Of a DNA stretch of 64,000 nt, positions 1-39,105 are shown piece after piece (positions within the stretch are counted from its first letter, which is position 1; every line of letters starts with the position of its first letter). A program made the translations under genes and the position numbers. The notes under the pieces were generated by a model. It had not been told where the DNA came from. It saw nothing but the letters and a program-made list of their open reading frames with translations, and made no database searches. Origin of the DNA: Prevotella sp. (GTDB lineage: Bacteria; Bacteroidota; Bacteroidia; Bacteroidales; Bacteroidaceae); the NCBI GenBank assembly GCA_017458125.1, contig JAFTGB010000066.1:1-64000 (forward strand), given 5' to 3'.

Positions 1-24
1 ATTAAAACCAATAACCCATTGAAT

Positions 25-3771: not shown

Positions 3772-3796
3772 GCCGATGAACTGTCGTAATATGCTG

Positions 3797-3804
3797 CAAA
3801 GATA
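3797..3804 (-). promoter_or_regulatory. -7 promoter element of the glycosyltransferase operon (copy 1)
   Basis: TATCTTTG on the minus strand matches the Bacteroidota TAnnTTTG element and sits 26 bp before the GT4 start codon. It lies downstream of the ncRNA terminator hairpin, so the operon has its own promoter. Confidence 0.7.
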
Positions 3805-3844
3805 CGGCTTTTTTCCGACAAAAACCTCAACAAAGGGGAAAAAA

Positions 3845-4159
3845 GAAAAACACCACGACTCATCGACGAGCGGTGGTGTTCAAAAAGCCTATGTTTAACT
3901 AAAAATCCTTTCAAAACAAATCCAGCCTTTCGACTGGGGGGACTGTCTTGCGACAGCGTATATATTCATTCATACTAACATTCATTTAAAAAAGAAAGTT
4001 ATGAGCGCCTCACGGCGACCACTGTTATCCTAACACATTTAAAACTTTCTTCTTACCAATAACTAAAAACCTAAAACTATAAATATTACTACTAACCTAA
4101 AACAATCTATTAACCATTTCTTCGACTTCACTTAGTCAAAGCGTCAACTTTTGTTTGAC
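3845..4159 (-). ncRNA. Candidate structured non-coding RNA, about 315 nt (copy 1)
   Basis: Mirror copy of 24421-24735; see that entry for the structure. This is the only content of the 513-bp gap between the GT4 gene and ispF. On the minus strand it starts just after TACCTTTG (4164-4171) and ends in a terminator hairpin followed by T-runs. Confidence 0.55.
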
Positions 4160-4284
4160 GATGCAAAGGTACGCACTTTTATCGTTTCGCACAATACCTT
4201 TAGCGGTTTTTTATCCGAAAAGGGCTTCGTTCTTGACTTAAATCAAGGGTTTGTTTGCGCACACAACACGAAATCTGCCTTTTT

Positions 4285-4761
4285 TCAGTCTTTTTCTAAC
4301 AGCACAACGGCGTAGGCTGATATACCCTCCTGCCTTCCGGTGAAGCCTAACTTCTCCGTAGTGGTGGCTTTGATGGAGATGTTGTCGGGATCGGTACCGA
4401 TGACGTTGGCCATGCACTGCTGCATCTGCGGTATGTGCGGGTTCATTTTTGGCCGCTCGGCACAGATGGTAGCGTCGATGTTGCCTAATCTGTAACCTTT
4501 GGCCGCCACAAGTTCCATGGTTTTCCGCAGGATAATCTTGCTGTCCATGTTCTCCGTCTCGGCTGATGTGTCAGGGAAATGGAAACCGATGTCGCGCATG
4601 TTGGCGGCGCCAAGTATGGCATCGCAGATGGCATGTATCAGCACGTCGGCATCGCTGTGCCCTAATAGCCCTAACTCGTGTTCTATCCGTATGCCGCCAA
4701 TCCACAGCGCGCGGCCCACCACCAACTGGTGGACGTCATAGCCCATTCCGACTCTGATCAT
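4285..4761 (-). CDS. ispF: 2-C-methyl-D-erythritol 2,4-cyclodiphosphate synthase (copy 1)
   Basis: Cyclises CDP-methylerythritol 2-phosphate to MEcPP in the non-mevalonate isoprenoid pathway. The start at MIRVGMGYDVHQL gives 158 residues, the normal family length; a longer frame upstream is encoded by repeat DNA and is rejected. Visible motifs are the metal ligands in GYDVHQ, LLGHSDADVLIHAICDA, the DIGFHFPDT loop, and IKATTTEKLGFTGRQEG near the C-terminus. It lies 109 bp downstream of porV, separated by a tandem/inverted repeat patch; the porU-porV-ispF order suggests read-through transcription. Confidence 0.95.
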   Translation of the reverse strand: MIRVGMGYDVHQLVVGRALWIGGIRIEHELGLLGHSDADVLIHAICDAILGAANMRDIGFHFPDTSAETENMDSKIILRKTMELVAAKGYRLGNIDATICAERPKMNPHIPQMQQCMANVIGTDPDNISIKATTTEKLGFTGRQEGISAYAVVLLEKD

Positions 4762-4790
4762 GATGCTTTTCTTATTTCTTTCAGTTGCGA

Positions 4791-4875
4791 GCGGTATCCC
4801 GGTATTCCGGTATTCCGTTATACCGACCCGGCATTCCGGCATTCCGGTATTCCGTTATCCCGCCATCCCGCTATT
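4791..4875. repeat. Tandem 'ccggtattcc'-type repeat between porV and ispF (copy 1)
   Basis: About eight degenerate copies of a 9-10 bp unit (ggtattccg, gcattccg, gttatcccg) fill the gap and begin right at the porV stop codon. The unit occurs in several near-identical versions, like other word-repeats in this window. No coding or promoter signal is seen. Confidence 0.8.
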
Positions 4876-6037: not shown

Positions 6038-6041
6038 TTGC

Positions 6042-9000: not shown

Positions 9001-9620
9001 GTGGCTGCCACGTAGTCGGCCGTCAGCAGTTCGGGCTGCAAGGCGCCGCCATAGCCGTAGAGCTTGACTTTCGACAGGTCGCTGAAGCCGGCCTGGCGCA
9101 CGAGTTCCTGCGTAAGCTGGTAGATGCCGCTCTGCGCCACGCGTATCTTCACCCAGCGGCCCGTGGCTAACACGGAGTGGGCGGCGTAGCGGTCGGCGGC
9201 GGCACGCGCACGCCGGGTCTGCCGGCGGCCGGTGGCTTCCACTTTCAGCATGAAGCTCACCAACTTCTGATACTGACCGTCGCGGTACACCAACGGCACA
9301 AACGACGTCACCAGCTCACCCTCCTTCCGGTCAACGCTGACCAACTGCGTAATCTCGGGCAGCGCGGGCAGCGCAGCGTCCGTAATGGACTGGTAGCGTC
9401 GCACGTCGCCCTCGCTCATGGGTATGAACTCGGGATAGGCTATGCTGACGCTATACACCGAGTCGGCATAGTGGCGCCCTAAGGGCAGCTTGCAGGTGAA
9501 CACGGGCAGCAACGAGTCTATCCTGACCTCGTCGGCGGTCAGGTTGAAGAACCGCTGCGCGCTGACCGTCACACTGGTCAGCAGCAGCATTACACCTATT
9601 ATTATATAACGTCGCGTCAC
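6042..9620 (-). CDS. porU: Type IX secretion C-terminal signal peptidase/sortase PorU (copy 1)
   Basis: A 1192-residue surface protease of the gingipain-like C25 family that removes the C-terminal signal of type IX cargo and links it to A-LPS. Starts with GTG overlapping the stop of the FAH gene; the signal peptide ends in TVSAQ. The catalytic pair is visible as His682 in NYAGHG and Cys714 in LTASCDIMP, a spacing like the known enzyme. The C-terminus (VFDISGRHLWTYSEAG, then GVYLYRLRISSDG and AKKLIVLTHQ) is itself a type A sorting-domain-like fold. Transcribed FAH-porU-porV, with ispF behind. Confidence 0.94.
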   Translation of the reverse strand: MTRRYIIIGVMLLLTSVTVSAQRFFNLTADEVRIDSLLPVFTCKLPLGRHYADSVYSVSIAYPEFIPMSEGDVRRYQSITDAALPALPEITQLVSVDRKEGELVTSFVPLVYRDGQYQKLVSFMLKVEATGRRQTRRARAAADRYAAHSVLATGRWVKIRVAQSGIYQLTQELVRQAGFSDLSKVKLYGYGGALQPELLTADYVAATDDLQEVATCQVGDHRLFYAVGPMTWDSSDNRIRNPYSAYGYYFLTESDGAPATVSEEQFLSACYPTADDYNTLYEVDDYAWYHGGRNLYDARPFTVGTSRDYTVTANANTLSGRVTVALSAYTTGNGNSATADITINGEKAGTISISPSGTYESMRTSQRTFHVVLNPTNTVTITHTGGTNSTLRLDYIALHSVEAASAPDLTATFPTPEYVYGITNQDHHADTAVDMVIIIPTTQKLLGQAERLKTLHEQQDGLRVRIVPADELFNEFSSGTPDANAYRRYMKMLYDRAETDADMPRYLLLMGDGAWDNRMLSSAWAGESPDDFLLCYESENSYSATDCYVSDDYFGLLDDGEGGDMRVGKSDVAVGRITGRTADDAAIVVDKIVSYVNNDHAGAWQNVLCFMGDDGNENAHMADADTVARMVEQLYPSYQVKRIMWDAYTRVSTSTGNTYPDVTRLIKQQMQQGALMMNYAGHGRADAISHEYVLRLADFENTSANLPLWLTASCDIMPFDGQEANIGETAMLNKRGGAVAFFGTTRTVYQTYNKLMNLAFTRHVLAKDSEGRVTPIGEAARRAKNELIETGIFTGYSNGMPVYSTDRTLNKLQYSLLGDPAMRLAAPTMGITVDAINDVPVSAGKVLTIGAGSTATVSGHVTSPDGQTATGFDGTLSAVVRDASELVTCKLNDASEASRAFTYYDRLNVIFSGSNQVKDGTFKFSFAVPKDISYSDLTGLINLYAINGDKTQKANGLTDQLVFNGSGDVGNTGVGPSIYCYLNSASFANGGNVNPTPYFVAQLSDEDGINSTGSGIGHDLQLIIDGEMAQTYSLNDYFQYDFGSYTSGTVGYNIPTLTYGEHKLLFRAWDVLNNSSTTELTFNVVKGLEPVFFDVECTINPASTSTSFRILHDRTGSSMDVVLDVFDISGRHLWTYSEAGVSTDNAYTVDWDLTVDGGRRLQTGVYLYRLRISSDGSSYASKAKKLIVLTHQ

Positions 9621-10234
9621 TTGCAGTTAAATTCCAATACTTTCCGTTCTTCCAACCACCCTTCCAAGTGGTCGTCGATGTGCACGGGACCTACGCCTGC
9701 CGGCGTTCCCGTATAGAGCAGGTCGCCCGTCTTCAGGGTGAAGAACTGCGATATGTAGGCTATCAGCTCGTCTATCTTGTAGAGCATGTCGCTCGTACGG
9801 CCTTCCTGCACCGTCCGCCCGTTGATGTCGAGATGGAAATGCAGGGCCTGCACGTCCAGCAGTTTCTCCTTCGCCACCCAGTCGCCTATGACGGCCGAAC
9901 CGTCGAAACCCTTGCACAGATCCCAGGGCAGTCCCTTCTGGCGGGCCTCGCGCTGCACGTCGCGCGCGGTGAAGTCGATGCCTACGGTCACGGCGTCGTA
10001 GTAGCGGTGGGCAAAGCGCGCGGGAATGCTCTTGCCCAAGCGGCTGATGCGCACCACCAACTCCGTCTCGTAGTCCACCTGCGCGCTCCAGTCGGGTATG
10101 AAGAACGGCTTGTGGTCCTTCAGCAACGCGGAGTCGGCTTTGGTGAAGATGACGGGCTTCTCCGGTTTATATAACGCACCATCCAGCTCTTTATTGTGCT
10201 GGATGTAGTTCATTCCTATGCCAAATATTTTCAT
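9617..10234 (-). CDS. FAH-family hydrolase, probable acylpyruvate hydrolase (copy 1)
   Basis: A 205-residue single-domain fumarylacetoacetate hydrolase-like protein, the length of FAHD1/acylpyruvase enzymes. Starts KIFGIGMNYIQHNKEL. Metal ligands are visible in VDYETELVVRI and GIDFTARD, and the C-terminal LLYTGTPAGVGPV is the conserved active-site loop. It probably cleaves or decarboxylates a small acylpyruvate or oxaloacetate; the substrate is not evident. First gene of the operon leading into porU (GTGA overlap), with a TAACTTTG promoter at 10255-10262. Confidence 0.87.
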   Translation of the reverse strand: MKIFGIGMNYIQHNKELDGALYKPEKPVIFTKADSALLKDHKPFFIPDWSAQVDYETELVVRISRLGKSIPARFAHRYYDAVTVGIDFTARDVQREARQKGLPWDLCKGFDGSAVIGDWVAKEKLLDVQALHFHLDINGRTVQEGRTSDMLYKIDELIAYISQFFTLKTGDLLYTGTPAGVGPVHIDDHLEGWLEERKVLEFNCK

Positions 10235-10254
10235 AATTTACGCCTTTAGTGGTG

Positions 10255-10281
10255 CAAAGTTACTATTTTTTAGTAAATTTG
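10255..10281. promoter_or_regulatory. Divergent promoter pair (copy 1)
   Basis: TAACTTTG on the minus strand (10255-10262) serves the FAH-porU-porV operon. TAAATTTG on the plus strand (10274-10281) serves the secreted YD-like gene, whose ATG follows only 9 bp later, implying a nearly leaderless message. The two -7 elements lie 11 bp apart back to back. Confidence 0.65.
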
Positions 10282-10289
10282 CAGCGCAA

Positions 10290-11270
10290 ATGAAGAAGTT
10301 TTTGACCATACTGCTGCTCGCGCTGGCGTGCGCCGCCCAGGCACAGACACCGGCCGACCCGCGCAGCATTGCCATGACGGGCGTGCCCATAGAAGGCCCC
10401 ATCGACAGCCTTGACGTGTCGCTGCGCGAGCACGGCTTCACCGCGTGGGGACAGTCCGACGACGGCGAGGACTACTACTACCGGGGACTGTTCTACGGCT
10501 TCCGCGCCAAGCTCATCGTCACCGTCGAACCGCAGACGCGCCTCGTACAGTCGGCATACGTCACCATAGGCCCGTACAGCACGCAGAAGATGTTGGACAA
10601 AAACCTCAACTACTTCCTCTACAAACTGCAGCACGACAACGGCGAGCTCACCCCAAGGGACGGCTCGTGGTTCTACATCGACGACTACGGCAGCATCAAG
10701 GTCTCCGTCGTCACCCTCGACAACGGAGCACACGAAATAGGTGTCCTCTACCTCAACACGGCACCCTACTACAAGGACGCACTCACCCGAGGACTGCACG
10801 GCAACGTGCAGGAGGTGGTCACTGAGAACGCACTCGCCGAGGAGCAGTTTCTGCACTTCCACAACAACGGACAGGTGGAGAACCTCGACCTCGTGGAGCG
10901 GCACTACGACCGCTACGGATACCTGCTGACGGCACGCATGAAGGAAAAGGAGGGGTACAGCAGCGTGCACTACACCTACGACGACAGCCGACGGCTCGTC
11001 CGACGCACGCTGCTCAACGAGCAGGCAGGCATCAGCTACACCAACGAGTACACCTACAACGACCTCGGCGAGCCGCTCACCGAGCAGCAGAAGGTGTTCG
11101 ACAAGAACAAAGAGTGCCTCATGACCATCAACATGCGGTACGACTACCTGACGCGCGACGACAACGGCAACTGGACCGGCAACTCGCTGACCTTCACCTA
11201 TTGGGAGAAAGGCACCAAAGCCCGCCAGTCCACCGTCCTCCAGAAGCGCACCCTCACCTACTGGGAATAG
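10290..11270 (+). CDS. Secreted protein with YD/RHS-like repeat strands, unknown function (copy 1)
   Basis: A 326-residue protein from the ATG at 10290, which opens a signal peptide (KKFLTILLLALACAAQAQ). A longer frame upstream crosses the promoter and is rejected. Residues from about 195 on carry a series of tyrosine-rich strands: DRYGYLLTARMKEKEG, VHYTYDDSRRL, NEYTYNDLGEPL, RYDYLTRDDNGNW. This resembles YD/RHS-like beta repeats found in many Bacteroidota periplasmic or surface proteins. No catalytic motif is recognised. Transcribed divergently from the FAH-porU operon. Confidence 0.75.
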   Translation: MKKFLTILLLALACAAQAQTPADPRSIAMTGVPIEGPIDSLDVSLREHGFTAWGQSDDGEDYYYRGLFYGFRAKLIVTVEPQTRLVQSAYVTIGPYSTQKMLDKNLNYFLYKLQHDNGELTPRDGSWFYIDDYGSIKVSVVTLDNGAHEIGVLYLNTAPYYKDALTRGLHGNVQEVVTENALAEEQFLHFHNNGQVENLDLVERHYDRYGYLLTARMKEKEGYSSVHYTYDDSRRLVRRTLLNEQAGISYTNEYTYNDLGEPLTEQQKVFDKNKECLMTINMRYDYLTRDDNGNWTGNSLTFTYWEKGTKARQSTVLQKRTLTYWE

Positions 11271-11578
11271 ACAACCGTCTTTCGCGCGCGTACATATAAT
11301 TATATTGCAGCCTTTTAAGAAGCAAGAAGCAAGAGGCAAGAAGCAAGAGAATACACTATTGGGTTCCTCATAGGGAGGGTTTACCAACATTTCTCTTGCT
11401 TCTTGCCTCTTGCTTCTTGCTTCTCTAAAACTCTACTCTTGACGTTTCAAGGGTATGAAAAAACTTCGTGTCTTTGTGTCTTTGTGTTCAGTTAAAAATA
11501 AATCCGCAGAATATTTAATGGAACACAAAGACACGAAGACACGAAGGGTTTTTTAGAGGCAAAATTGCTTCTTGCTTT
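11271..11578. repeat. Gene-free gap made of two palindromic repeat elements
   Basis: Contains the 33-bp word hairpin (11318-11350 with 11392-11424, 41-nt loop) built from 'gaagcaag' units, which ends the inverted-repeat arm, then a 26-bp arm inverted repeat (11464-11489 with 11521-11546, one mismatch) built from 'cttcgtgtctttgtgtc'. A further 'gaagcaa' unit sits at 11567-11577. No gene or promoter is recognised here. Confidence 0.85.
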
Positions 11579-16583: not shown

Positions 16584-17309
16584 ACGTTTGTTTAAATTTG
16601 ATTAATAAATAAAAGTGTTATTTGTTCTCTATTCTCTCACGTTCTTTCAACGCGTCTCCGGCCCGGAGTCACGTTTTTGGGTGCAAATATAGGCATTAAT
16701 TTGCTATTCTGCAAGGATTTTTGCACATTTTTTTGAAAAAGTGCCAAAAAAAATGTCTTTTATCAGCCGCAGGCCGTGTATTTAGGCGGTTTTTACTCTT
16801 CTTAGCTTTGTTTTACAGGAGTATTTTAGTATTTTTAAATATTTTAAAAACAAGTAATGATAAAAAACAACTTGGGACGAAATTATTTATGGAACACAAA
16901 GACACGAAGACACGAAGGATTTTTAGAAGCAAGAGGTTTTTTAGAAGCAAGAAGCACGGAGCCGTTATAGCTCCCCTCCTTGGAAAGGAGGGGCCGGGGG
17001 TGGTTGATGACTACAGCGAATTTGACACTGTCAACTGGCATAATCAACCACCCCTAACCCCTCCTTTCCAAGGAGGGGGACTGATTACCATTTTCCTCAT
17101 TCATCATTGCGCGGCAGCGCAACAACTTTTGAGAGGCAAGAAGCAAGAGTTTTTTAGAAGCAAGAAGCAAGAGGCAAGAAGCAAGAGAAATGTTGGTAAA
17201 CCCTCCCTATGAGGAACCCAATAGTGTATTCTCTTGCTTCTTGCCTCTTGCTTCTTGCTTCTTAAAAGGCTGCAATATAATTATATGTACGCGCGCGAAA
17301 GACGGTTGT
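16584..17309. repeat. 726-bp gene-free region rich in palindromic interspersed repeats
   Basis: Holds the giant lipoprotein promoter and leader (16584-16691), then AT-rich sequence. After that come a half copy of the 'gaacacaaagacacgaag' element (16892-16917), 'gaagcaag' words (16925-16955), and a long inverted repeat (about 16972-17007 with 17044-17080) built from 'ccctccttggaaaggaggg' and 'ggggtggttga'. More 'gaagcaag' words follow (17131-17155), then the 33-bp hairpin of the right arm (17156-17188 with 17230-17262). Frames across it translate only repeats. Confidence 0.8.
16684..16691 (-). promoter_or_regulatory. -7 promoter element of the giant lipoprotein gene
   Basis: TATATTTG on the minus strand, about 100 bp before the start codon. 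The leader contains a small GC hairpin (ctccg with cggag) that stands out in AT-rich DNA and could stabilise an abundant message. Confidence 0.65.
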
Positions 17310-18290
17310 CTATTCCCAGTAGGTGAGGGTGCGCTTCTGGAGGACGGTGGACTGGCGGGCTTTGGTGCCTTTCTCCCAATAGGTGAAGGTCAGCGAGTTG
17401 CCGGTCCAGTTGCCGTTGTCGTCGCGCGTCAGGTAGTCGTACCGCATGTTGATGGTCATGAGGCACTCTTTGTTCTTGTCGAACACCTTCTGCTGCTCGG
17501 TGAGCGGCTCGCCGAGGTCGTTGTAGGTGTACTCGTTGGTGTAGCTGATGCCTGCCTGCTCGTTGAGCAGCGTGCGTCGGACGAGCCGTCGGCTGTCGTC
17601 GTAGGTGTAGTGCACGCTGCTGTACCCCTCCTTTTCCTTCATGCGTGCCGTCAGCAGGTATCCGTAGCGGTCGTAGTGCCGCTCCACGAGGTCGAGGTTC
17701 TCCACCTGTCCGTTGTTGTGGAAGTGCAGAAACTGCTCCTCGGCGAGTGCGTTCTCAGTGACCACCTCCTGCACGTTGCCGTGCAGTCCTCGGGTGAGTG
17801 CGTCCTTGTAGTAGGGTGCCGTGTTGAGGTAGAGGACACCTATTTCGTGTGCTCCGTTGTCGAGGGTGACGACGGAGACCTTGATGCTGCCGTAGTCGTC
17901 GATGTAGAACCACGAGCCGTCCCTTGGGGTGAGCTCGCCGTTGTCGTGCTGCAGTTTGTAGAGGAAGTAGTTGAGGTTTTTGTCCAACATCTTCTGCGTG
18001 CTGTACGGGCCTATGGTGACGTATGCCGACTGTACGAGGCGCGTCTGCGGTTCGACGGTGACGATGAGCTTGGCGCGGAAGCCGTAGAACAGTCCCCGGT
18101 AGTAGTAGTCCTCGCCGTCGTCGGACTGTCCCCACGCGGTGAAGCCGTGCTCGCGCAGCGACACGTCAAGGCTGTCGATGGGGCCTTCTATGGGCACGCC
18201 CGTCATGGCAATGCTGCGCGGGTCGGCCGGTGTCTGTGCCTGGGCGGCGCACGCCAGCGCGAGCAGCAGTATGGTCAAAAACTTCTTCAT
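17310..18290 (-). CDS. Secreted YD/RHS-like protein (copy 2)
   Basis: Identical to the gene at 10290-11270. Its stop codon lies about 50 bp from the hairpin that ends the arm. Confidence 0.75.
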   Translation of the reverse strand: MKKFLTILLLALACAAQAQTPADPRSIAMTGVPIEGPIDSLDVSLREHGFTAWGQSDDGEDYYYRGLFYGFRAKLIVTVEPQTRLVQSAYVTIGPYSTQKMLDKNLNYFLYKLQHDNGELTPRDGSWFYIDDYGSIKVSVVTLDNGAHEIGVLYLNTAPYYKDALTRGLHGNVQEVVTENALAEEQFLHFHNNGQVENLDLVERHYDRYGYLLTARMKEKEGYSSVHYTYDDSRRLVRRTLLNEQAGISYTNEYTYNDLGEPLTEQQKVFDKNKECLMTINMRYDYLTRDDNGNWTGNSLTFTYWEKGTKARQSTVLQKRTLTYWE

Positions 18291-18298
18291 TTGCGCTG

Positions 18299-18325
18299 CA
18301 AATTTACTAAAAAATAGTAACTTTG
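18299..18325. promoter_or_regulatory. Divergent promoter pair (copy 2)
   Basis: TAACTTTG (plus strand, 18318-18325) for the FAH operon and TAAATTTG (minus strand, 18299-18306) for the YD-like gene, as in copy 1. Confidence 0.65.
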
Positions 18326-18345
18326 CACCACTAAAGGCGTAAATT

Positions 18346-18963
18346 ATGAAAATATTTGGCATAGGAATGAACTACATCCAGCACAATAAAGAGCTGGATG
18401 GTGCGTTATATAAACCGGAGAAGCCCGTCATCTTCACCAAAGCCGACTCCGCGTTGCTGAAGGACCACAAGCCGTTCTTCATACCCGACTGGAGCGCGCA
18501 GGTGGACTACGAGACGGAGTTGGTGGTGCGCATCAGCCGCTTGGGCAAGAGCATTCCCGCGCGCTTTGCCCACCGCTACTACGACGCCGTGACCGTAGGC
18601 ATCGACTTCACCGCGCGCGACGTGCAGCGCGAGGCCCGCCAGAAGGGACTGCCCTGGGATCTGTGCAAGGGTTTCGACGGTTCGGCCGTCATAGGCGACT
18701 GGGTGGCGAAGGAGAAACTGCTGGACGTGCAGGCCCTGCATTTCCATCTCGACATCAACGGGCGGACGGTGCAGGAAGGCCGTACGAGCGACATGCTCTA
18801 CAAGATAGACGAGCTGATAGCCTACATATCGCAGTTCTTCACCCTGAAGACGGGCGACCTGCTCTATACGGGAACGCCGGCAGGCGTAGGTCCCGTGCAC
18901 ATCGACGACCACTTGGAAGGGTGGTTGGAAGAACGGAAAGTATTGGAATTTAACTGCAAGTGA
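18346..18963 (+). CDS. FAH-family hydrolase (copy 2)
   Basis: Identical to 9617-10234. Overlaps the GTG start of porU by 4 bp. Confidence 0.87.
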   Translation: MKIFGIGMNYIQHNKELDGALYKPEKPVIFTKADSALLKDHKPFFIPDWSAQVDYETELVVRISRLGKSIPARFAHRYYDAVTVGIDFTARDVQREARQKGLPWDLCKGFDGSAVIGDWVAKEKLLDVQALHFHLDINGRTVQEGRTSDMLYKIDELIAYISQFFTLKTGDLLYTGTPAGVGPVHIDDHLEGWLEERKVLEFNCK

Positions 18964-21900
18964 CGCGACGTTATATAATAATAGGTGTAATGCTGCTGCT
19001 GACCAGTGTGACGGTCAGCGCGCAGCGGTTCTTCAACCTGACCGCCGACGAGGTCAGGATAGACTCGTTGCTGCCCGTGTTCACCTGCAAGCTGCCCTTA
19101 GGGCGCCACTATGCCGACTCGGTGTATAGCGTCAGCATAGCCTATCCCGAGTTCATACCCATGAGCGAGGGCGACGTGCGACGCTACCAGTCCATTACGG
19201 ACGCTGCGCTGCCCGCGCTGCCCGAGATTACGCAGTTGGTCAGCGTTGACCGGAAGGAGGGTGAGCTGGTGACGTCGTTTGTGCCGTTGGTGTACCGCGA
19301 CGGTCAGTATCAGAAGTTGGTGAGCTTCATGCTGAAAGTGGAAGCCACCGGCCGCCGGCAGACCCGGCGTGCGCGTGCCGCCGCCGACCGCTACGCCGCC
19401 CACTCCGTGTTAGCCACGGGCCGCTGGGTGAAGATACGCGTGGCGCAGAGCGGCATCTACCAGCTTACGCAGGAACTCGTGCGCCAGGCCGGCTTCAGCG
19501 ACCTGTCGAAAGTCAAGCTCTACGGCTATGGCGGCGCCTTGCAGCCCGAACTGCTGACGGCCGACTACGTGGCAGCCACCGACGACCTGCAGGAGGTAGC
19601 CACCTGTCAGGTCGGCGACCACCGCCTGTTCTACGCCGTCGGTCCCATGACGTGGGACAGCAGCGACAACCGCATTCGCAACCCCTATTCCGCCTACGGC
19701 TACTACTTCCTGACCGAGAGCGACGGCGCGCCCGCCACCGTCAGCGAAGAGCAGTTCCTAAGCGCATGCTACCCGACGGCCGACGACTACAACACGCTGT
19801 ACGAAGTGGACGACTACGCGTGGTATCACGGCGGTCGCAACCTGTACGACGCCCGCCCGTTCACCGTGGGCACGAGCCGCGACTACACGGTGACGGCCAA
19901 TGCCAACACGCTGTCGGGACGCGTGACCGTGGCCCTGTCGGCCTACACGACGGGCAACGGCAACAGCGCCACCGCCGACATCACCATCAACGGCGAGAAG
20001 GCCGGTACCATCAGCATCAGTCCGTCAGGCACCTACGAGTCGATGCGCACCAGTCAGCGCACCTTCCACGTCGTCCTGAATCCCACCAACACCGTCACCA
20101 TCACCCATACCGGCGGCACCAACAGCACGCTGCGCTTAGACTACATTGCGCTGCACAGCGTGGAGGCTGCCAGCGCCCCCGACCTGACGGCGACGTTCCC
20201 GACGCCGGAATACGTCTACGGCATCACCAACCAGGACCACCACGCCGACACGGCCGTCGACATGGTCATCATCATTCCCACTACCCAGAAACTGTTAGGA
20301 CAGGCTGAGCGTCTGAAGACCCTGCACGAACAGCAGGACGGCCTTCGCGTGCGCATCGTGCCCGCCGACGAGCTGTTCAACGAGTTCAGTAGCGGCACGC
20401 CCGACGCCAATGCCTACCGCCGCTATATGAAGATGCTGTACGACCGCGCCGAGACCGACGCCGACATGCCGCGCTACCTGCTGCTGATGGGCGACGGCGC
20501 GTGGGACAACCGCATGCTGAGCAGCGCGTGGGCGGGCGAGAGTCCCGACGACTTCCTGCTGTGCTACGAGAGCGAGAACTCGTACAGTGCCACCGACTGC
20601 TACGTCAGCGACGACTACTTCGGACTGTTGGACGACGGCGAGGGCGGCGACATGCGCGTGGGCAAGTCCGACGTGGCGGTAGGCCGCATCACCGGGCGTA
20701 CCGCCGACGATGCCGCCATCGTGGTGGACAAGATTGTCAGCTACGTGAACAACGACCATGCCGGCGCGTGGCAGAACGTGCTCTGCTTCATGGGCGACGA
20801 CGGCAACGAGAACGCCCACATGGCCGATGCCGACACGGTGGCGAGGATGGTGGAGCAGCTATACCCCTCCTATCAGGTGAAGCGCATCATGTGGGACGCG
20901 TACACCCGCGTCAGCACGTCGACAGGCAATACCTACCCTGACGTGACGCGGCTCATTAAGCAGCAGATGCAGCAGGGTGCGCTGATGATGAACTACGCCG
21001 GCCACGGAAGAGCCGACGCCATATCGCATGAGTACGTGCTGAGACTCGCCGACTTCGAGAACACGTCGGCCAACCTGCCGCTGTGGCTTACCGCGTCGTG
21101 CGACATCATGCCCTTTGACGGGCAGGAGGCCAACATCGGCGAGACGGCCATGCTCAACAAGCGAGGCGGTGCCGTGGCCTTCTTCGGTACCACCCGTACC
21201 GTTTACCAGACCTATAACAAGCTGATGAACCTGGCTTTCACCCGCCATGTCTTAGCCAAGGACAGCGAAGGGCGCGTGACGCCCATAGGCGAGGCTGCAC
21301 GCCGCGCCAAGAACGAGCTGATAGAGACGGGCATCTTCACCGGCTACAGCAATGGAATGCCGGTCTACTCCACCGACCGTACACTGAACAAGTTGCAGTA
21401 CAGCCTGTTAGGCGACCCAGCCATGCGGCTGGCCGCGCCCACCATGGGCATTACGGTGGATGCCATCAACGACGTGCCCGTGTCGGCAGGCAAGGTGCTG
21501 ACGATAGGCGCCGGCTCCACGGCCACTGTCAGCGGCCACGTCACCAGCCCGGACGGCCAGACGGCCACGGGCTTCGACGGTACCCTGTCGGCTGTCGTCC
21601 GTGATGCCAGCGAGCTGGTCACCTGCAAGCTCAACGACGCATCGGAAGCCAGCAGAGCCTTCACCTACTACGACCGCCTGAACGTCATCTTCAGCGGCAG
21701 CAACCAGGTGAAGGACGGCACGTTCAAGTTCAGCTTTGCCGTCCCCAAGGACATCAGCTACTCCGACCTTACGGGGCTCATCAACCTTTACGCCATCAAC
21801 GGCGACAAGACACAGAAGGCCAACGGACTGACCGACCAGCTCGTGTTTAACGGCAGCGGCGACGTCGGCAACACCGGAGTGGGCCCCAGCATCTACTGCT

Positions 21901-22538
21901 ACCTGAACAGCGCGTCGTTCGCCAACGGCGGCAACGTCAATCCCACCCCCTACTTCGTGGCCCAGCTGAGCGACGAAGACGGCATCAACAGCACGGGCAG
22001 CGGCATCGGCCACGACCTGCAGCTCATCATCGACGGCGAGATGGCACAGACCTACTCGCTGAACGACTACTTCCAGTACGACTTCGGCAGCTACACCAGC
22101 GGTACCGTGGGCTACAACATCCCCACGCTGACGTACGGCGAGCACAAACTGCTGTTCCGCGCGTGGGACGTGCTGAACAACTCGTCGACGACGGAGCTGA
22201 CGTTCAACGTAGTGAAGGGGCTGGAGCCGGTGTTCTTCGATGTGGAGTGTACCATCAACCCGGCGTCCACGTCCACGTCGTTCCGCATCCTGCACGACCG
22301 GACGGGCAGCAGCATGGACGTCGTGCTTGACGTGTTCGACATCTCCGGACGCCACCTGTGGACGTACAGCGAGGCGGGCGTGTCTACCGACAATGCCTAC
22401 ACCGTAGACTGGGACCTCACCGTCGACGGCGGTCGCCGCCTGCAGACGGGTGTCTACCTCTATCGCCTGCGCATCAGCAGCGACGGTAGCAGCTATGCCT
22501 CGAAAGCCAAGAAACTGATAGTATTAACCCATCAATAA
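18960..22538 (+). CDS. porU: Type IX sortase PorU (copy 2)
   Basis: Identical to 6042-9620. On this strand the catalytic His682 codon is at 21003 and the Cys714 codon at 21099. A second intact porU would be redundant in a normal genome, which bears on whether the duplication is real. Confidence 0.93.
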   Translation: MTRRYIIIGVMLLLTSVTVSAQRFFNLTADEVRIDSLLPVFTCKLPLGRHYADSVYSVSIAYPEFIPMSEGDVRRYQSITDAALPALPEITQLVSVDRKEGELVTSFVPLVYRDGQYQKLVSFMLKVEATGRRQTRRARAAADRYAAHSVLATGRWVKIRVAQSGIYQLTQELVRQAGFSDLSKVKLYGYGGALQPELLTADYVAATDDLQEVATCQVGDHRLFYAVGPMTWDSSDNRIRNPYSAYGYYFLTESDGAPATVSEEQFLSACYPTADDYNTLYEVDDYAWYHGGRNLYDARPFTVGTSRDYTVTANANTLSGRVTVALSAYTTGNGNSATADITINGEKAGTISISPSGTYESMRTSQRTFHVVLNPTNTVTITHTGGTNSTLRLDYIALHSVEAASAPDLTATFPTPEYVYGITNQDHHADTAVDMVIIIPTTQKLLGQAERLKTLHEQQDGLRVRIVPADELFNEFSSGTPDANAYRRYMKMLYDRAETDADMPRYLLLMGDGAWDNRMLSSAWAGESPDDFLLCYESENSYSATDCYVSDDYFGLLDDGEGGDMRVGKSDVAVGRITGRTADDAAIVVDKIVSYVNNDHAGAWQNVLCFMGDDGNENAHMADADTVARMVEQLYPSYQVKRIMWDAYTRVSTSTGNTYPDVTRLIKQQMQQGALMMNYAGHGRADAISHEYVLRLADFENTSANLPLWLTASCDIMPFDGQEANIGETAMLNKRGGAVAFFGTTRTVYQTYNKLMNLAFTRHVLAKDSEGRVTPIGEAARRAKNELIETGIFTGYSNGMPVYSTDRTLNKLQYSLLGDPAMRLAAPTMGITVDAINDVPVSAGKVLTIGAGSTATVSGHVTSPDGQTATGFDGTLSAVVRDASELVTCKLNDASEASRAFTYYDRLNVIFSGSNQVKDGTFKFSFAVPKDISYSDLTGLINLYAINGDKTQKANGLTDQLVFNGSGDVGNTGVGPSIYCYLNSASFANGGNVNPTPYFVAQLSDEDGINSTGSGIGHDLQLIIDGEMAQTYSLNDYFQYDFGSYTSGTVGYNIPTLTYGEHKLLFRAWDVLNNSSTTELTFNVVKGLEPVFFDVECTINPASTSTSFRILHDRTGSSMDVVLDVFDISGRHLWTYSEAGVSTDNAYTVDWDLTVDGGRRLQTGVYLYRLRISSDGSSYASKAKKLIVLTHQ

Positions 22539-22542
22539 GCAA

Positions 22543-23709
22543 ATGAAGACAAAAGTGAAGATAATAGTTACGGCAGTGTGCCTGACGATTGCCCTGTCAG
22601 CGTCGGCACAGGACACGAAGAGCCAGTTCAATCCCATTGAACATGCCGTCATCTCGCAGACCATCGCCCCTGACGCCAGGGCTGCCGGTATGGGCGATGT
22701 CGGCGTGGCCACCGACCCTGACGTCAACTCGCAGTATTGGAACCCGGCCAAGTACCCGTTCTGCATCAGCCGCGCGGGCATAGCGCTGAACTACACGCCG
22801 TGGCTGCGCCAGTTGGTGAACGACATCGACCTGGCCTACGTGGCCGGTTACTACCGCATAGGCGACTATGCGGCGGTGAGCGGTTCGCTGCGCTACTTCT
22901 CGTTAGGCGAGGTGATGACGTCGTTGGAAGAGAACGCCATGACGGTGAAGCCCTACGAGATGTCCATCGACGTCGGTGCCTCGCTGATGCTCAGCGAGAA
23001 GTTCTCCATTGCCGCCGCCATACGCTGGCTGCACAGTGACCTGCGCTACGACTACACCGAGGATGCGTCGCCTGCATCGGCTTTTGCCGCTGACCTGGCC
23101 TGCTACTACAACAACTACATCAACATCGGCCAGCGCGAGTGCCAGTTGGGCTTGGGACTCAACATCTCCAATGTAGGCTCAAAAATCACCTACTTCGGTG
23201 ACGACCGTTCCAACTTCCTGCCTGCCAACCTGCGTCTGGGTGCCGCCCTCATGGTTCCCGTCGACGAGTACAACCGCTTTAGCATCTCTGCTGACGCCAA
23301 CAAGCTGTTAGTGCCCACGCTGCCCAAACAGAACGACGGCGAGTCGAAGGAGGACTACGAGCAGCGCGTCATTGAGGAATATAACGACGTCAGCTCCATT
23401 GCCGGCATCTTCAAGAGTTTCCATGATGCTCCCGGCGGCTTCAAGGAGGAGCTGCAGGAGATACAGTGGAGCATCGGTGCCGAATACATCTACCACGACC
23501 AGTTCTCGCTGCGTGCCGGTTATCACCACGAGAGTGAGAACAAGGGTAACCGCAAATATTTCACCGTCGGTGGCGGTTTCCGCATGAGTGTCTTCTCGCT
23601 TGACGTGGGCTACGTCATCTCTACGGCACGCAGCAACCCGCTCGACCAGACGCTGCGCTTCACCCTGGCTTTCGACATGGACGGTATTAAGGATTTATTT
23701 AGGAAATAG
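22543..23709 (+). CDS. porV: Type IX shuttle protein PorV (copy 2)
   Basis: Identical to 4871-6037 and placed 4 bp behind porU, as in the other arm. Confidence 0.92.
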   Translation: MKTKVKIIVTAVCLTIALSASAQDTKSQFNPIEHAVISQTIAPDARAAGMGDVGVATDPDVNSQYWNPAKYPFCISRAGIALNYTPWLRQLVNDIDLAYVAGYYRIGDYAAVSGSLRYFSLGEVMTSLEENAMTVKPYEMSIDVGASLMLSEKFSIAAAIRWLHSDLRYDYTEDASPASAFAADLACYYNNYINIGQRECQLGLGLNISNVGSKITYFGDDRSNFLPANLRLGAALMVPVDEYNRFSISADANKLLVPTLPKQNDGESKEDYEQRVIEEYNDVSSIAGIFKSFHDAPGGFKEELQEIQWSIGAEYIYHDQFSLRAGYHHESENKGNRKYFTVGGGFRMSVFSLDVGYVISTARSNPLDQTLRFTLAFDMDGIKDLFRK

Positions 23710-23789
23710 CGGGATGGCGGGATAACGGAATACCGGAATGCCGGAATGCCGGGTCGGTATAACGGAATACCGGAATACCGGGATACCGC
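23705..23789. repeat. Tandem 'ggaataccgg'-type repeat (copy 2)
   Basis: Mirror of 4791-4875. Read on this strand it is a run of ataccgg/aatgccgg units starting at the porV stop codon. Confidence 0.8.
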
Positions 23790-23818
23790 TCGCAACTGAA
23801 AGAAATAAGAAAAGCATC

Positions 23819-24295
23819 ATGATCAGAGTCGGAATGGGCTATGACGTCCACCAGTTGGTGGTGGGCCGCGCGCTGTGGATTGGCGGCATACGGATAGAAC
23901 ACGAGTTAGGGCTATTAGGGCACAGCGATGCCGACGTGCTGATACATGCCATCTGCGATGCCATACTTGGCGCCGCCAACATGCGCGACATCGGTTTCCA
24001 TTTCCCTGACACATCAGCCGAGACGGAGAACATGGACAGCAAGATTATCCTGCGGAAAACCATGGAACTTGTGGCGGCCAAAGGTTACAGATTAGGCAAC
24101 ATCGACGCTACCATCTGTGCCGAGCGGCCAAAAATGAACCCGCACATACCGCAGATGCAGCAGTGCATGGCCAACGTCATCGGTACCGATCCCGACAACA
24201 TCTCCATCAAAGCCACCACTACGGAGAAGTTAGGCTTCACCGGAAGGCAGGAGGGTATATCAGCCTACGCCGTTGTGCTGTTAGAAAAAGACTGA
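23819..24295 (+). CDS. ispF: 2-C-methyl-D-erythritol 2,4-cyclodiphosphate synthase (copy 2)
   Basis: Identical to 4285-4761. Essential genes such as ispF are rarely duplicated in bacteria. Confidence 0.95.
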   Translation: MIRVGMGYDVHQLVVGRALWIGGIRIEHELGLLGHSDADVLIHAICDAILGAANMRDIGFHFPDTSAETENMDSKIILRKTMELVAAKGYRLGNIDATICAERPKMNPHIPQMQQCMANVIGTDPDNISIKATTTEKLGFTGRQEGISAYAVVLLEKD

Positions 24296-24385
24296 AAAAA
24301 GGCAGATTTCGTGTTGTGTGCGCAAACAAACCCTTGATTTAAGTCAAGAACGAAGCCCTTTTCGGATAAAAAACCGCTAAAGGTA

Positions 24386-24416
24386 TTGTGCGAAACGATA
24401 AAAGTGCGTACCTTTG
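24386..24416 (+). promoter_or_regulatory. Promoter of the candidate ncRNA
   Basis: TTG at 24386-24388, 20 bp, then TACCTTTG at 24409-24416: a full match to the Bacteroidota housekeeping promoter. No ORF of useful length follows for 390 bp, so the transcript is probably non-coding. The mirror site is 4164-4194. Confidence 0.75.
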
Positions 24417-24420
24417 CATC

Positions 24421-24735
24421 GTCAAACAAAAGTTGACGCTTTGACTAAGTGAAGTCGAAGAAATGGTTAATAGATTGTTTTAGGTTAGTAGTAATATTTA
24501 TAGTTTTAGGTTTTTAGTTATTGGTAAGAAGAAAGTTTTAAATGTGTTAGGATAACAGTGGTCGCCGTGAGGCGCTCATAACTTTCTTTTTTAAATGAAT
24601 GTTAGTATGAATGAATATATACGCTGTCGCAAGACAGTCCCCCCAGTCGAAAGGCTGGATTTGTTTTGAAAGGATTTTTAGTTAAACATAGGCTTTTTGA
24701 ACACCACCGCTCGTCGATGAGTCGTGGTGTTTTTC
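24421..24735 (+). ncRNA. Candidate structured non-coding RNA with GNRA hairpins (copy 2)
   Basis: The 5' end has two small hairpins (24421-24437, gtcaa with ttgac; 24439-24460, ctttgac with gtcgaag). A longer stem joins about 24529-24537 (aagaaagtt) to 24581-24589 (aactttctt) and encloses CGCC-GTGA-GGCG (24563-24574). Then follow CTGTC-GCAA-GACAG (24624-24637) and CCAGTC-GAAA-GGCTGG (24643-24658), and finally a terminator. All three apical loops are GNRA tetraloops. It has its own promoter, its own terminator, AT-rich linkers and no credible reading frame. I cannot match it to 6S, SRP, tmRNA or RNase P RNA from memory; Bacteroidales RNA families in Rfam are the first comparison. Confidence 0.55.
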
Positions 24736-24740
24736 TTTTT
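24700..24740 (+). terminator. Rho-independent terminator of the ncRNA
   Basis: acaccac (24701-24707) pairs with gtggtgt (24724-24730), with an inner ctc/gag pairing, followed by TTTTCTTTTTT. It ends before the separate TATCTTTG promoter (24776-24783) of the glycosyltransferase operon. Mirror at 3840-3880 on the minus strand. Confidence 0.75.
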
Positions 24741-24775
24741 TCCCCTTTGTTGAGGTTTTTGTCGGAAAAAAGCCG

Positions 24776-24783
24776 TATCTTTG
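24776..24783 (+). promoter_or_regulatory. -7 element of the glycosyltransferase operon (copy 2)
   Basis: TATCTTTG, 26 bp before the GT4 ATG at 24809. Confidence 0.7.
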
Positions 24784-24808
24784 CAGCATATTACGACAGT
24801 TCATCGGC

Positions 24809-26059
24809 ATGAAGGTACTAATAGTCAACACAAGTGAGCGGACGGGTGGGGCAGCCGTTGCCGCCAACCGGCTGATGGAAGCCCTGAACAGGAACGGCGT
24901 GAAAGCCCGGATGCTGGTGCGCGACAAGGACACCAACGCGCTGACCGTCATCGGTCTGTCGCCGTCATGGCGTCTGCAGTGGCACTTCCTGTGGGAACGG
25001 CTGGTCATCTGGTTCCACCTGCGGCTCAGTCGGAAGCATTTGTTCGAGATTGATATAGCCAACTGTGGCACCGACATTACGCAGTTGCCGGAGTTTCAGT
25101 CGGCCGATGTCATCCATCTGCACTGGGTCAATCAGGGCATGCTTTCGCTGCGTAACATCCGCAAGATACTGGACAGTGGAAAACCCGTGGTATGGACCAT
25201 GCACGACATCTGGCCAGCTACGGCCATCTGTCACTACGCCCGCGACTGTGAGCAGTTCCATAAGGCGTGCGGCAACTGTCCGCTGTTGCCGGGGCATAGT
25301 CCTAAGGGATTGGCCAACCGTGTGTGGCGGCAGAAGCAGCAGATGCTGGAGGGTCGCCGGGTCGCCTACGTCGCCTGTAGCCAGTGGTTGGCAGGCGAGG
25401 CCCGCAAGAGTGCGCTGCTGCGGGGACAGACCGTTGTCAGCATTCCCAACACCATTGATACCCGCCAGTTCTGTCCGCAAGACAAGCGGCAGGCCAAGTC
25501 GGCCCTCGGTCTGCCCGCCGACAAGCGCATCATCCTCTTTGTATCGCAGCGCGTCACCGACCCGCGCAAGGGCATGCGCTACTTTGTGGACGCCGTGCGC
25601 CTGCTGGCCAGGCAACACGCCGACCTTGCCAGCCAGACGGCCATAGCCATCTTAGGCGGTCATGCCGAGGAGGTCGCTTCGCAGTTGTCGCTGCCAGCCT
25701 ATCCCTTAGGCTATGTCAGTGACCCCAAGCGCATCGTTCAAGTCTATAATGCCGCCGATGTCTTCGTGCTGCCCTCGTTAGAGGACAACCTGCCCAACAC
25801 GCTGATGGAGGCCATGGCCTGCGGGGTGCCTTGTGTGGGCTTCCGCACGGGCGGCATTCCTGAGATGATAGACCATCGGGAGAACGGCTATGTCGCCGAC
25901 TTCCAGCAGTCTGCCGACCTGGCGCGGGGCATCTTTTACGTCCTGGCCGAGGCCGATGGCGCTGCGCTCAGCCGTCAGTGTCTGCACAAGGTCGCTCACA
26001 GCTATTCGCAGCAGAGCGTGGCCCGCCAATACATCGACATCTATAACCAGCTCTTATGA
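24809..26059 (+). CDS. GT4 family glycosyltransferase (copy 2)
   Basis: Identical to 2521-3771; overlaps the GT2 start as ATGA. Confidence 0.88.
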   Translation: MKVLIVNTSERTGGAAVAANRLMEALNRNGVKARMLVRDKDTNALTVIGLSPSWRLQWHFLWERLVIWFHLRLSRKHLFEIDIANCGTDITQLPEFQSADVIHLHWVNQGMLSLRNIRKILDSGKPVVWTMHDIWPATAICHYARDCEQFHKACGNCPLLPGHSPKGLANRVWRQKQQMLEGRRVAYVACSQWLAGEARKSALLRGQTVVSIPNTIDTRQFCPQDKRQAKSALGLPADKRIILFVSQRVTDPRKGMRYFVDAVRLLARQHADLASQTAIAILGGHAEEVASQLSLPAYPLGYVSDPKRIVQVYNAADVFVLPSLEDNLPNTLMEAMACGVPCVGFRTGGIPEMIDHRENGYVADFQQSADLARGIFYVLAEADGAALSRQCLHKVAHSYSQQSVARQYIDIYNQLL

Positions 26060-26826
26060 TTTGCATTTCCATAGTCACCATCACCTACAACGCTGCCCGT
26101 ACGTTGCAGCGCACCTTGGACAGCGTGGCGCGCCAGAGCTACCAGCACTTGGAACACCTCATCGTGGACGGTGCTTCAAGCGACGACACGGTAGCCATTG
26201 CACAACGTTATCAGGCGGCTGCCGCCTACGAGGTCAGCATTCAGTCGGAGCCTGACAAGGGACTCTACGACGCTATGAACAAGGGATTGCGCATGGCTAC
26301 GGGCGACTATGTCGTCTTTCTGAATGCCGGCGACACCCTGCACGCTGCCGACACCTTGGAGACCGTAGTCAAGACCATAGGCAATGGACGGCCTGCCGTC
26401 GTCTATGGCGACACCGCCATTACCGACGCTGACGGCCGTTTCCTGCATCTGCGCACCCACCGGCCGCCCAAAGTGCTCACATGGAAGTCGTTTAAGAAGG
26501 GTATGCTGGTGTGTCATCAGGCCTTTTACGCCCGTACTGACATCGCACAAAAGATGCCTTACGACCTGCGCTACCGCCACTCGGCCGACGTGGACTGGTG
26601 TATCCGCATCATGAAAGAGGCAGACCGCTTGGGCCTGCCTCTTGCCAATACTCATGCTGTTGTTGCTGATTTCGAGGAGGGTGGCGACACTACGCAGCAT
26701 CACCGCGACTCGTTATGGGAGCGTTTCCACGTCATGTCCTGTCACTACGGGCTGGTGCAGACCGTGCTGCTGCACTGCTGGTTCGTCGTGAGGGCGGTTC
26801 TTACTTCACTATTTTCTTCCCGTTGA
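26056..26826 (+). CDS. GT2 family glycosyltransferase, WcaE-like (copy 2)
   Basis: Identical to 1754-2524, again overlapping the convergent amylase gene by 26 bp. Confidence 0.87.
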   Translation: MICISIVTITYNAARTLQRTLDSVARQSYQHLEHLIVDGASSDDTVAIAQRYQAAAAYEVSIQSEPDKGLYDAMNKGLRMATGDYVVFLNAGDTLHAADTLETVVKTIGNGRPAVVYGDTAITDADGRFLHLRTHRPPKVLTWKSFKKGMLVCHQAFYARTDIAQKMPYDLRYRHSADVDWCIRIMKEADRLGLPLANTHAVVADFEEGGDTTQHHRDSLWERFHVMSCHYGLVQTVLLHCWFVVRAVLTSLFSSR

Positions 26827-28555
26827 TGACGTAGATGCCGTGCTTCAGCTGGTTCAGGGCTTCGGCTTCTGTAGTGTCTGACGGCAGTATGCGCAGCAAG
26901 TGGCCGTCTATGGTGTAGACCTTCAGCAGGCGGTTACCGCCTGTGGTGGCCGTAGGCAGCTGTATGCCTGTCACTGTGCCCTGTAACGCTCCGGCTTCGT
27001 TGTAGTAGCCGCCGTTCTTGAAGTCCAGGTCGCTGGTCTGTCCGAAGCTCCCGTTGAAGATGATGTTCGTGGGCAGGGTGGTCAGCGTTCCGGTGTATGT
27101 CCACTTCCACACGTTGTTGCCGTTGTTGGTACCCACCTTGGTACAGGCCTGTCCCGGCCATGTGCCGCCTGTGTAGTTGTTCTTGGAGTCCCACGCCCAG
27201 CACTTGATGCCGGTATAGCTGGCGGGAGCCTCGAAGAAAGCACACACCTCGCCCTCGCCGACCACGCAGCAGTCAGGGATGGTAAAAGTGTCGTCCTTGA
27301 TGTTGTCAAGTGCTGAGAGGTCAACGCCGTTGGTGACGTACATCTTGAAGTTGCTGCCTTCGACAGCCAGCTTGTAGCCGTCGGTGTTAGCCGTGGCGGT
27401 GCCTAACAGTAGCATGACGTTGCCCTTGGTGCCCTGTACGGTGAGCACGTAGCCGTTGGACGTAGCCTGCTTCGTCACAATGCTGCTCTGACTGTTCAGA
27501 CCGGCAGCCTTGCGCGTCAGTATCAGCTTCTTGATGGTCGTCTTGTACGTCTTCCAGTGCGACAGCCATACGCACGGTGTGCCTGGCAGCGTCAGAATGA
27601 AGGCGTTGGCAGCCTCGACGTTGGCGTATAGCGGACTCTCACCCTGCCGTCCTGTGTCGTGGTTGTCCACAAAGGTTACGGCATAGCGTGCCAGTTCCTC
27701 GTTGGTGCTCAGTGCGTCGTTGTTAAGTTTGCTCCAGTTGGAGGCGTTCGAGAACACGTCGTTGATGTTGGTCTTCATAGGGAAGTCGAAAGCCGCGCTC
27801 TGGATGACGCCATCCACCTTGGTGCCGTTGAGCCAGGTGAGGATGGTGCTGTACTTCTCCCAGCACTCCATCACCGAGAACTGCGGCTTCGCCGTCTGGT
27901 TATACTGCCCGATGTACCGAGGGGCATAGCCCAGCACGAAGTCGTAACGGAAACCAACGTAGCCTAAGTCGTTGAGCAGGAAGTCCAAGTAGGCGTTGAC
28001 GTTCTTCTGCACGTTGGCACTGGTGTGGTCCAGGTCGCGTGCGCCGCCCCATCCCCGCCCCGTGTCCTTGGCACCCGTGGGGCTGTAGCCGCTGTTCTTC
28101 GACTCGTCATCCTGACAGATGTCGGCTGCCGTCAGCTGATAGGTTTCGCCCTTATACGTCTCTGCGGGGAAGTTCAGCCAGTTGCCGTCCACGCTGGCGC
28201 GGTGGTTGATGACCACGTCTTCGATGATGCCGGTGCCCTTCTGCTTGAAGGTCTGTATCATGGAGCGTAGCTGAGCCTCGGTGCCGAAAGCGCTCTTATG
28301 GTCGAACCAGTAGACGGGGTGGTAGCCCATGTTGTTCTTCAAATCGTTGGCATAGGCTGAGTTGGGTACCCAGATGAGACTGAAATACTGCGACAGCTCG
28401 TCGGCCTGTGACTCCAGATTGGCCCAGTTGGTGTCGGTGTAGGAGTCCCAGTAGAAGCCTTGCAGCATAATGCCGTCATACTTTTCAGGCCAACCTTGTG
28501 CCAACATGGGCATGGAGGCCAGCAGGATGATGATGGAAGTGTAGAGTCGTTTCAT
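26801..28555 (-). CDS. Secreted GH13 alpha-amylase with type IX sorting tail (copy 2)
   Basis: Identical to 25-1779. In this copy the upstream region is visible: TAACTTTG at 28584-28591 (minus strand) lies about 29 bp before the ATG and just beyond the visible edge of the inverted repeat. Confidence 0.9.
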   Translation of the reverse strand: MKRLYTSIIILLASMPMLAQGWPEKYDGIMLQGFYWDSYTDTNWANLESQADELSQYFSLIWVPNSAYANDLKNNMGYHPVYWFDHKSAFGTEAQLRSMIQTFKQKGTGIIEDVVINHRASVDGNWLNFPAETYKGETYQLTAADICQDDESKNSGYSPTGAKDTGRGWGGARDLDHTSANVQKNVNAYLDFLLNDLGYVGFRYDFVLGYAPRYIGQYNQTAKPQFSVMECWEKYSTILTWLNGTKVDGVIQSAAFDFPMKTNINDVFSNASNWSKLNNDALSTNEELARYAVTFVDNHDTGRQGESPLYANVEAANAFILTLPGTPCVWLSHWKTYKTTIKKLILTRKAAGLNSQSSIVTKQATSNGYVLTVQGTKGNVMLLLGTATANTDGYKLAVEGSNFKMYVTNGVDLSALDNIKDDTFTIPDCCVVGEGEVCAFFEAPASYTGIKCWAWDSKNNYTGGTWPGQACTKVGTNNGNNVWKWTYTGTLTTLPTNIIFNGSFGQTSDLDFKNGGYYNEAGALQGTVTGIQLPTATTGGNRLLKVYTIDGHLLRILPSDTTEAEALNQLKHGIYVINGKKIVK

Positions 28556-28583
28556 ATTCAATGGGTTATTGGTTTTAATGGTG

Positions 28584-38908: not shown

Positions 38909-38929
38909 GGATTTCGATTCTTCCTTACT

Positions 38930-39010
38930 CTGTCATCCCTACGTCGGCATTACCCGTATCAGGTTCAGAAGGGTATCATCTCAGCCCGCAACAGCGAGCA
39001 CCCCTTGACG
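38930..39010 (-). promoter_or_regulatory. TPP riboswitch
   Basis: The minus strand carries the full thi-box: ggggtgc, then gcgggCTGAGATgatacccttctGAACCTGATacGGGTAATGCCgacgtAGGGATGA in order (38932-39005). The CTGAGA and ACCTGAT...TAATGCC cores are intact. The TACCTTTG promoter lies upstream at 39033-39040. It controls the TonB receptor-pnuT-thiN operon: TPP binding should switch it off. Confidence 0.95.
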
Positions 39011-39105
39011 AGCACTTTGCTCAAATCGGGCGCAAAGGTACGACAAAAAATTAAAATTAAGGCATAAAAGATGAAAAAGAAGCATGTCAGTCCCCTTTTT
39101 CACAA

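Follow-up and report, generated by a model that had tools for sequence, protein, structure and literature searches.

Which function is served by the non-coding stretch in Prevotella sp. that is flanked on one side by an ispF-type gene (YgbB) and on the other by a gene for a glycosyltransferase, and that was originally predicted to specify a structured RNA outside the known families? Many microbial communities of the gut and the rumen are dominated by Prevotella and Segatella, and to our knowledge little is known about post-transcriptional control in these bacteria. We analysed the locus within a window of 64,000 nucleotides (the whole stretch of DNA under study) and compared it with its counterparts in related genomes and on viral contigs.

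Gene layout and predicted RNA

The features of the locus are collected in Table 1. The promoter of the original prediction is indeed present, with TTG at 24386-24388, a spacer of 20 bp and TACCTTTG at 24409-24416, and so are the strong terminator and the hairpins capped by GTGA, GCAA and GAAA. The predicted fold consists of two 5' hairpins, the central GTGA-capped hairpin, the GCAA and GAAA hairpins and the terminator. The calculated energy of the 323-nt stretch is -83.3 kcal/mol, against -68.3 kcal/mol (sd 4.6) for 100 shuffled versions, none of which reaches the stability of the real sequence (z -3.2).

Table 1. Features of the sRNA locus and its upstream region (window coordinates)
Feature	Position	Strand	Basis
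Palindrome TTGTGTGCGCAAACAA, second conserved upstream site	24314..24329		Sequence reading
Crp/Fnr-type box TTGATTTAAGTCAA	24334..24347		TTGAN6TCAA pattern, fixed position across loci
Bacteroidota-type promoter, TTG-N20-TACCTTTG	24386..24416	+	Sequence reading
Predicted sRNA, about 310-320 nt	24418..24740	+	Fold z -3.2; matches in relatives
Ultraconserved single-stranded seed module, ~60 nt, U-rich	24465..24527	+	28-ortholog alignment; SusC pairing
Central hairpin domain: outer GAAAGTT/AACTTTC stem and inner GTGA-capped hairpin	24531..24586	+	Covariation (inner), invariance (outer)
GCAA-capped hairpin, lineage-specific	24623..24638	+	Double changes in close orthologs
GAAA-capped hairpin, lineage-specific	24643..24658	+	Double changes in close orthologs
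Conserved 3' motif GGATTTTTAGTTAAACATAGGC	24672..24693	+	Near-invariant in 28 orthologs
Intrinsic terminator: covarying stem and T tract	24700..24740	+	Fold and covariation
Identical mirror copy within 11.4-kb inverted repeat	3840..4194	-	Self-comparison of contig

The RNA was claimed to be unassigned, and the Rfam scans agree with this. At gathering thresholds the whole window yielded only TPP and tRNA matches, both away from the sRNA locus; at the locus itself neither 6S, nor Bacteroidales-1, nor any other Rfam family exceeded its threshold, and a permissive scan of the locus gave seven sub-threshold matches, the best with an E-value of 0.39. The TPP riboswitch (RF00059, 63.6 bits) is located at 38919-39015 on the minus strand. 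Because the locus is conserved and its stems covary (see below), the data support a structured non-coding RNA gene that has its own promoter and terminator and falls outside the Rfam families.

The mirrored copy of the unit, also part of the original prediction, exists in the contig. It belongs to an inverted repeat of 11,434 bp (1-11434 versus 17146-28579) with arms that are 100% identical. Since the outer arm starts exactly at base 1 of the contig, the repeat is probably an assembly fold-back, duplicating every gene inside it.

Conservation across relatives

Within Prevotella sensu lato the predicted sRNA gene is conserved and in some genomes occurs in several copies. In a search of 100 genomes (E 0.001) some match was found in 55 of the 60 genomes of the same genus, the own genome included, and in none of the 40 genomes of other genera; in two of the 55 (G025 and G051) the matches are confined to the 3' part. 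Similarly, an exact pattern of the seed was present in 13 of 301 genomes of the family, namely in 13 of the 22 that belong to the own genus (own genome included) and in 0 of the 279 from other genera. At least 118 host stretches in the named collection gave a match, and the titles among the matches listed comprise Prevotella, Segatella (copri, baroniae, albensis), Hallella, Xylanibacter, Leyella, Hoylesella and unclassified Bacteroidales. Five genomes that were searched for the core contained six, five, four, two and one matches, respectively. An ispF gene and/or a glycosyltransferase gene was found within 2.5 kb in 91 of the 118 loci among the matches listed, and both were near in 34 of these 118, many of the flanks being short.

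We aligned 28 of the 45 core-bearing loci of the genus, picked for part of the 3' motif (the 17 outside the alignment are L018, L019, L023, L038, L046 and twelve loci that gave no match to this motif). The most conserved part is the seed module (24465-24527) and not the GNRA hairpins. The part that is invariant in the 28 orthologs corresponds to the U-rich module AATAGATTGTTTAGGTTAGTAG...TTTAGGTTTTTAGTTATT, which is AU-rich and lies outside the predicted consensus helices. The consensus structure comprises the GTGA hairpin of the central domain together with the terminator, and it does show covariation: at least one double change was observed for 17 of its 21 pairs, including 5 of the 7 pairs of the inner GTGA hairpin. 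The outer GAAAGTT/AACTTTC stem showed no variation in seven close orthologs.

Complementarity to SusC start regions

A first, looser ranking of genes by hybrid energy did not separate SusC genes from other genes (Mann-Whitney p 0.14) and, being uninformative, was replaced by ungapped stacking energies between the core and the start regions (-70 to +20), evaluated against 300 dinucleotide-shuffled cores. Start codons were simple first-ATG calls and part of each genome was sampled. A SusC gene was considered promoter-bearing when a promoter was present within 100 nt of it. The SusC set of the own genome comprised 19 genes (18 over the family cut-off and one split gene), with 15 weaker TonB-type matches left out.

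The core pairs better than its shuffles with the start regions of promoter-bearing SusC genes in the own genome (n=11, z -4.15, reached by 0 of 300 shuffles), in G035 (n=10, z -3.6, 1 of 300) and in G055 (n=4, z -2.68, 3 of 300), and the signal was weakest of the four genomes in G016 (n=8, z -1.73, 14 of 300). SusC genes lacking a promoter in front gave no signal in the own genome, G035 and G055 (z +1.2, -0.94 and +0.32, respectively) and a weak one in G016 (z -1.69). There was no signal for other promoter-proximal genes either (z +1.07 in the own genome, -0.44 in G035, -0.09 in G055 and +1.58 in G016), of which 60 out of 107 were used in the own genome and all of the 40, 21 and 55 in the other three. 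Rank 1 among 481 genes was taken by a SusC gene that can form an uninterrupted duplex of 20 bp, G-U pairs included, at -24 to -5.

The signal was located by sliding a window along the RNA, using 33 pooled SusC start regions with six shuffles each and 66 sampled other genes as a control. The main SusC signal was found at 24458-24505 (z -3.2 to -5.6), followed by a window with z -1.8 and by windows at 24498-24529 with z -3.0 and -2.5; the 66 other genes gave no pairing signal across this stretch. The main pairing stretch as a whole (24458-24521) coincides with the peak of conservation. Beyond the module, a second and lesser SusC signal is seen at 24586-24617 (z -3.5 and -4.5), no such signal was found for the 3' motif GGATTTTTAGTTAAACATAGGC, and in a few windows pairing with SusC is poorer than with the shuffles (z up to +3.9).

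The RNA thus evolves most slowly in a single-stranded part whose sequence is complementary to the start regions of SusC genes, a finding suggestive of antisense pairing. We consider it probable that this sRNA of Prevotella sensu lato acts in trans, by base pairing, to block SusC translation. The open U-rich module would bind the mRNAs of SusC-type outer-membrane transporters, which import sugars, at the leader and the start codon. This pairing, mainly with mRNAs of genes directly preceded by a promoter, would block their translation, while the hairpins and the terminator would serve to protect and to end the RNA.

The upstream control region

We also found a Crp/Fnr-type box upstream of the promoter, and its position is fixed. 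The upstream set among the matches listed contained 130 stretches (118 host and 12 viral, partly the same loci as those of the 45-locus genus set). Of the host loci in this set, 109 had sufficient sequence upstream and 108 of these a -7 box; in 105 of the 108, which are the scorable ones, TTGAN6TCAA occurred at -81 to -83 relative to the end of the -7 box, against a background of 68 in 31375 windows of 30 nt from the same loci, true sites included. In the 45 genus loci the box starts at -80 to -83 in 40 cases and is missing from the fixed position in L039, L042, L043, L046 and L047. The second palindrome, TGTNNNCGNNNACA, lies no further than 150 nt upstream in 94 of the 108 scorable host loci among the matches listed, mostly at -100 to -104 and in some loci at -34 or -26.

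The box TTGATTTAAGTCAA resembles the consensus sequences quoted for FNR (TTGATnnnnATCAA) and HcpR (TTGACnnnnGTCAA) in PMC1274295. Cur/BT4338 was rejected as the regulator, as the consensus quoted for it (wwwTATGTTnTAnAACATAwww; PMC6989115, PMC3878776) differs from the box. For the second palindrome an SOS site was considered and rejected, as its sequence does not agree with the Bacteroidetes SOS motifs given in PMC8565304. In the own draft genome a single protein, L091, matched HTH_Crp_2 over the cut-off; this relative of PDB 1zyb is only a candidate for the regulator. Transcription of the sRNA would be controlled by a Crp/Fnr-family regulator at the fixed box, together with the second palindromic site. 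A Crp/Fnr-type box (TTGATTTATGTCAA) is also located just downstream of the promoter of the SusC gene at 21914 on contig G000:C86, so that the same regulator may in addition control a SusC target directly.

Comparison with FopS, GibS and other sRNAs

In Bacteroides thetaiotaomicron the FopS sRNAs repress susC translation with a 5' seed and are antagonised by the RRM protein RbpB (PMC11697453). The Prevotella sRNA shares several traits with FopS (Rfam RF04319, paralogous sRNAs of Bacteroides): an AU-rich seed, a sigma-ABfr-type promoter, paralogous copies, occurrence on viral contigs and, found here in silico, pairing with the start regions of susC homologs. In contrast to FopS, which measures 65-70 nt, it has a predicted length of about 310-320 nt from promoter to terminator, its seed is longer and different, and it is preceded by the fixed Crp/Fnr box. 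Moreover, whereas FopS is antagonised by an RRM protein, RRM_1 proteins were found in only three of 100 genomes of the genus that carries the Prevotella sRNA.

The RF04319 model had no match in the window, nor in three host and two viral loci of the Prevotella type (L200, L035, L036, L292 and L320), and in the controls it recovered the FopS sRNAs on two IMG/VR contigs (L344, 82.3 bits; L347, 73.6 bits). Similarity to the FopS R1' seed was scored for 14 host loci: three loci of the window type scored 12, which is not significant (reached by 180-207 of 500 shuffles), ten others scored a marginal 15-16 (2-29 of 500) and L047 scored 10 (366 of 500). FopS-type seeds pair poorly with the SusC leaders of Prevotella (z below -1 in 4 of 17).

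The enterobacterial sRNAs MicA and OmrA/B likewise repress outer-membrane proteins (porins) at the start region; they belong to another phylum and have other co-factors, and no kinship is claimed. GibS of B. thetaiotaomicron resembles the Prevotella sRNA in having a long single-stranded seed that pairs with translation initiation regions, but differs from it, as far as described in PMC7366714, in its length (145 nt), its promoter motif (PM2), its targets and the location of its seed at the extreme 5' end. Among the top-ranked titles on sRNAs of Prevotella and Segatella and on phage sRNAs and SusC, a survey with most subscription papers outside its scope, the element is undescribed.

Copies of the module on viral contigs

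The seed module, or parts of it, occurs on many IMG/VR contigs (L281-L343), often with an ORF before it and an intrinsic terminator directly after it. The exact seed pattern was found in 12 viral contig stretches, and two part-patterns and a FopS pattern bring the number of viral sites to 81, of which 74 are distinct; a 71-nt query had no match in the GenBank phage collection. A terminator follows the element in 54 of the 71 cases with enough sequence (36 of 53 of the Prevotella type and 18 of 18 of the FopS type), compared with 20 of 400 random places. The terminator finder was strict and misses hairpins that are visible by eye (L283, L300, L316), and some of its matches look like chance (L310, L332, L335). 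Five of eight large proteins encoded at seven viral loci match phage portal, terminase or tape-measure families and three match nothing; among four proteins encoded ahead of the element, two gave matches to phage families whose function is unknown.

The presence of the module on viral contigs, often just before a terminator, suggests phage mimics. Our tentative proposal is that minimal mimics are widespread in phages whose hosts are probably of the Prevotella type; they would consist of the SusC-silencing seed of the host and an intrinsic terminator placed after phage genes, and would shut down SusC-type outer-membrane proteins during infection, for instance to exclude competing phages that need these proteins. 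It is likewise conceivable that the viral module is not an sRNA at all, and is instead a cis-acting element, either of the 3'-UTR or linked to the terminator, or an attachment site. This reading is in line with the position of the Prevotella-type elements, 39 of 56 of which lie within 160 nt after the stop of an ORF (489 of 2000 random places do), and with the lack of a recognisable host-type promoter in most cases: 9 of the 10 exact-pattern matches with enough upstream sequence have no -7 box, and the sole match that has one is without a Crp/Fnr box. However, the ORFs that precede the Prevotella-type elements fall into many unrelated groups. In addition, the FopS-like 5' word GTTTTTCAT (at most one mismatch), which is complementary to ATGAAAAAC, is present within 80 nt upstream of 16 of the 53 Prevotella-type elements, compared with 52 of 2000 random windows and with just 1 of 45 host loci in which it lies upstream of the seed. 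Finally, the 45 nt before the type-A elements, a flank outside the search pattern, pair with SusC leaders (z below -1) in 14 of 21 cases against 7 of 21 in the control.

If these proposals are true, the conserved sRNA silences SusC in Prevotella with no need for the RRM protein known from Bacteroides, it is set by a Crp/Fnr-type switch at a fixed position and phages have copied its seed, and nutrient choice, metabolic/redox sensing and phage biology would be joined in one circuit.

Alternative readings of the host RNA

An sRNA of Segatella copri, SrcF, was reportedly described by El Mouali et al. in 2024. That our locus is SrcF or a direct ortholog of it is possible, if somewhat doubtful, and would be compatible with the silencing of SusC. 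According to a review (PMC11814227), deletion of SrcF disturbs the expression of nutrient-uptake genes, including PULs, and the family of seed-module sRNAs is present in S. copri iA622 (L200). Nevertheless, it is host and theme that connect the two, SrcF being compared here by its description and not by its sequence.

CsrB acts as a sponge for CsrA, and the UUAG-rich module could in a similar way be mainly a landing pad for a protein. UUAG and UUUAG words are indeed repeated inside the ultraconserved stretch, and for Bacteroides sRNAs binding of RbpB to single-stranded parts has been described (PMC11697453). We nevertheless set a sponge for an RRM protein aside as the main reading because RRM_1 is rare in the genus and was not found in the own draft genome, which is 88% complete; the specific pairing of the module with SusC start regions also speaks against a protein sponge, a reading that we regard as unlikely.

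Least probable is a structural RNA in which GNRA hairpins dock to give a compact tertiary fold, as had been put forward originally: the GTGA, GCAA and GAAA loops and the covarying stems (double changes in 5 of 6 pairs of the GCAA hairpin and in 2 of 6 of the GAAA hairpin among seven close orthologs) would fit it, but of the 28 orthologs 16 wholly lack the GCAA stretch and 11 the GAAA stretch, the slowest-evolving part is the single-stranded, AU-rich module, and Rfam gave no match. The GNRA loops are confirmed as such but do not hold the key to function, and the preferred reading remains an sRNA that silences SusC through its seed. Its gene also has a C25-family peptidase (18960-22538) and PorV (22543-23709), related to type IX secretion, as neighbours in the window.
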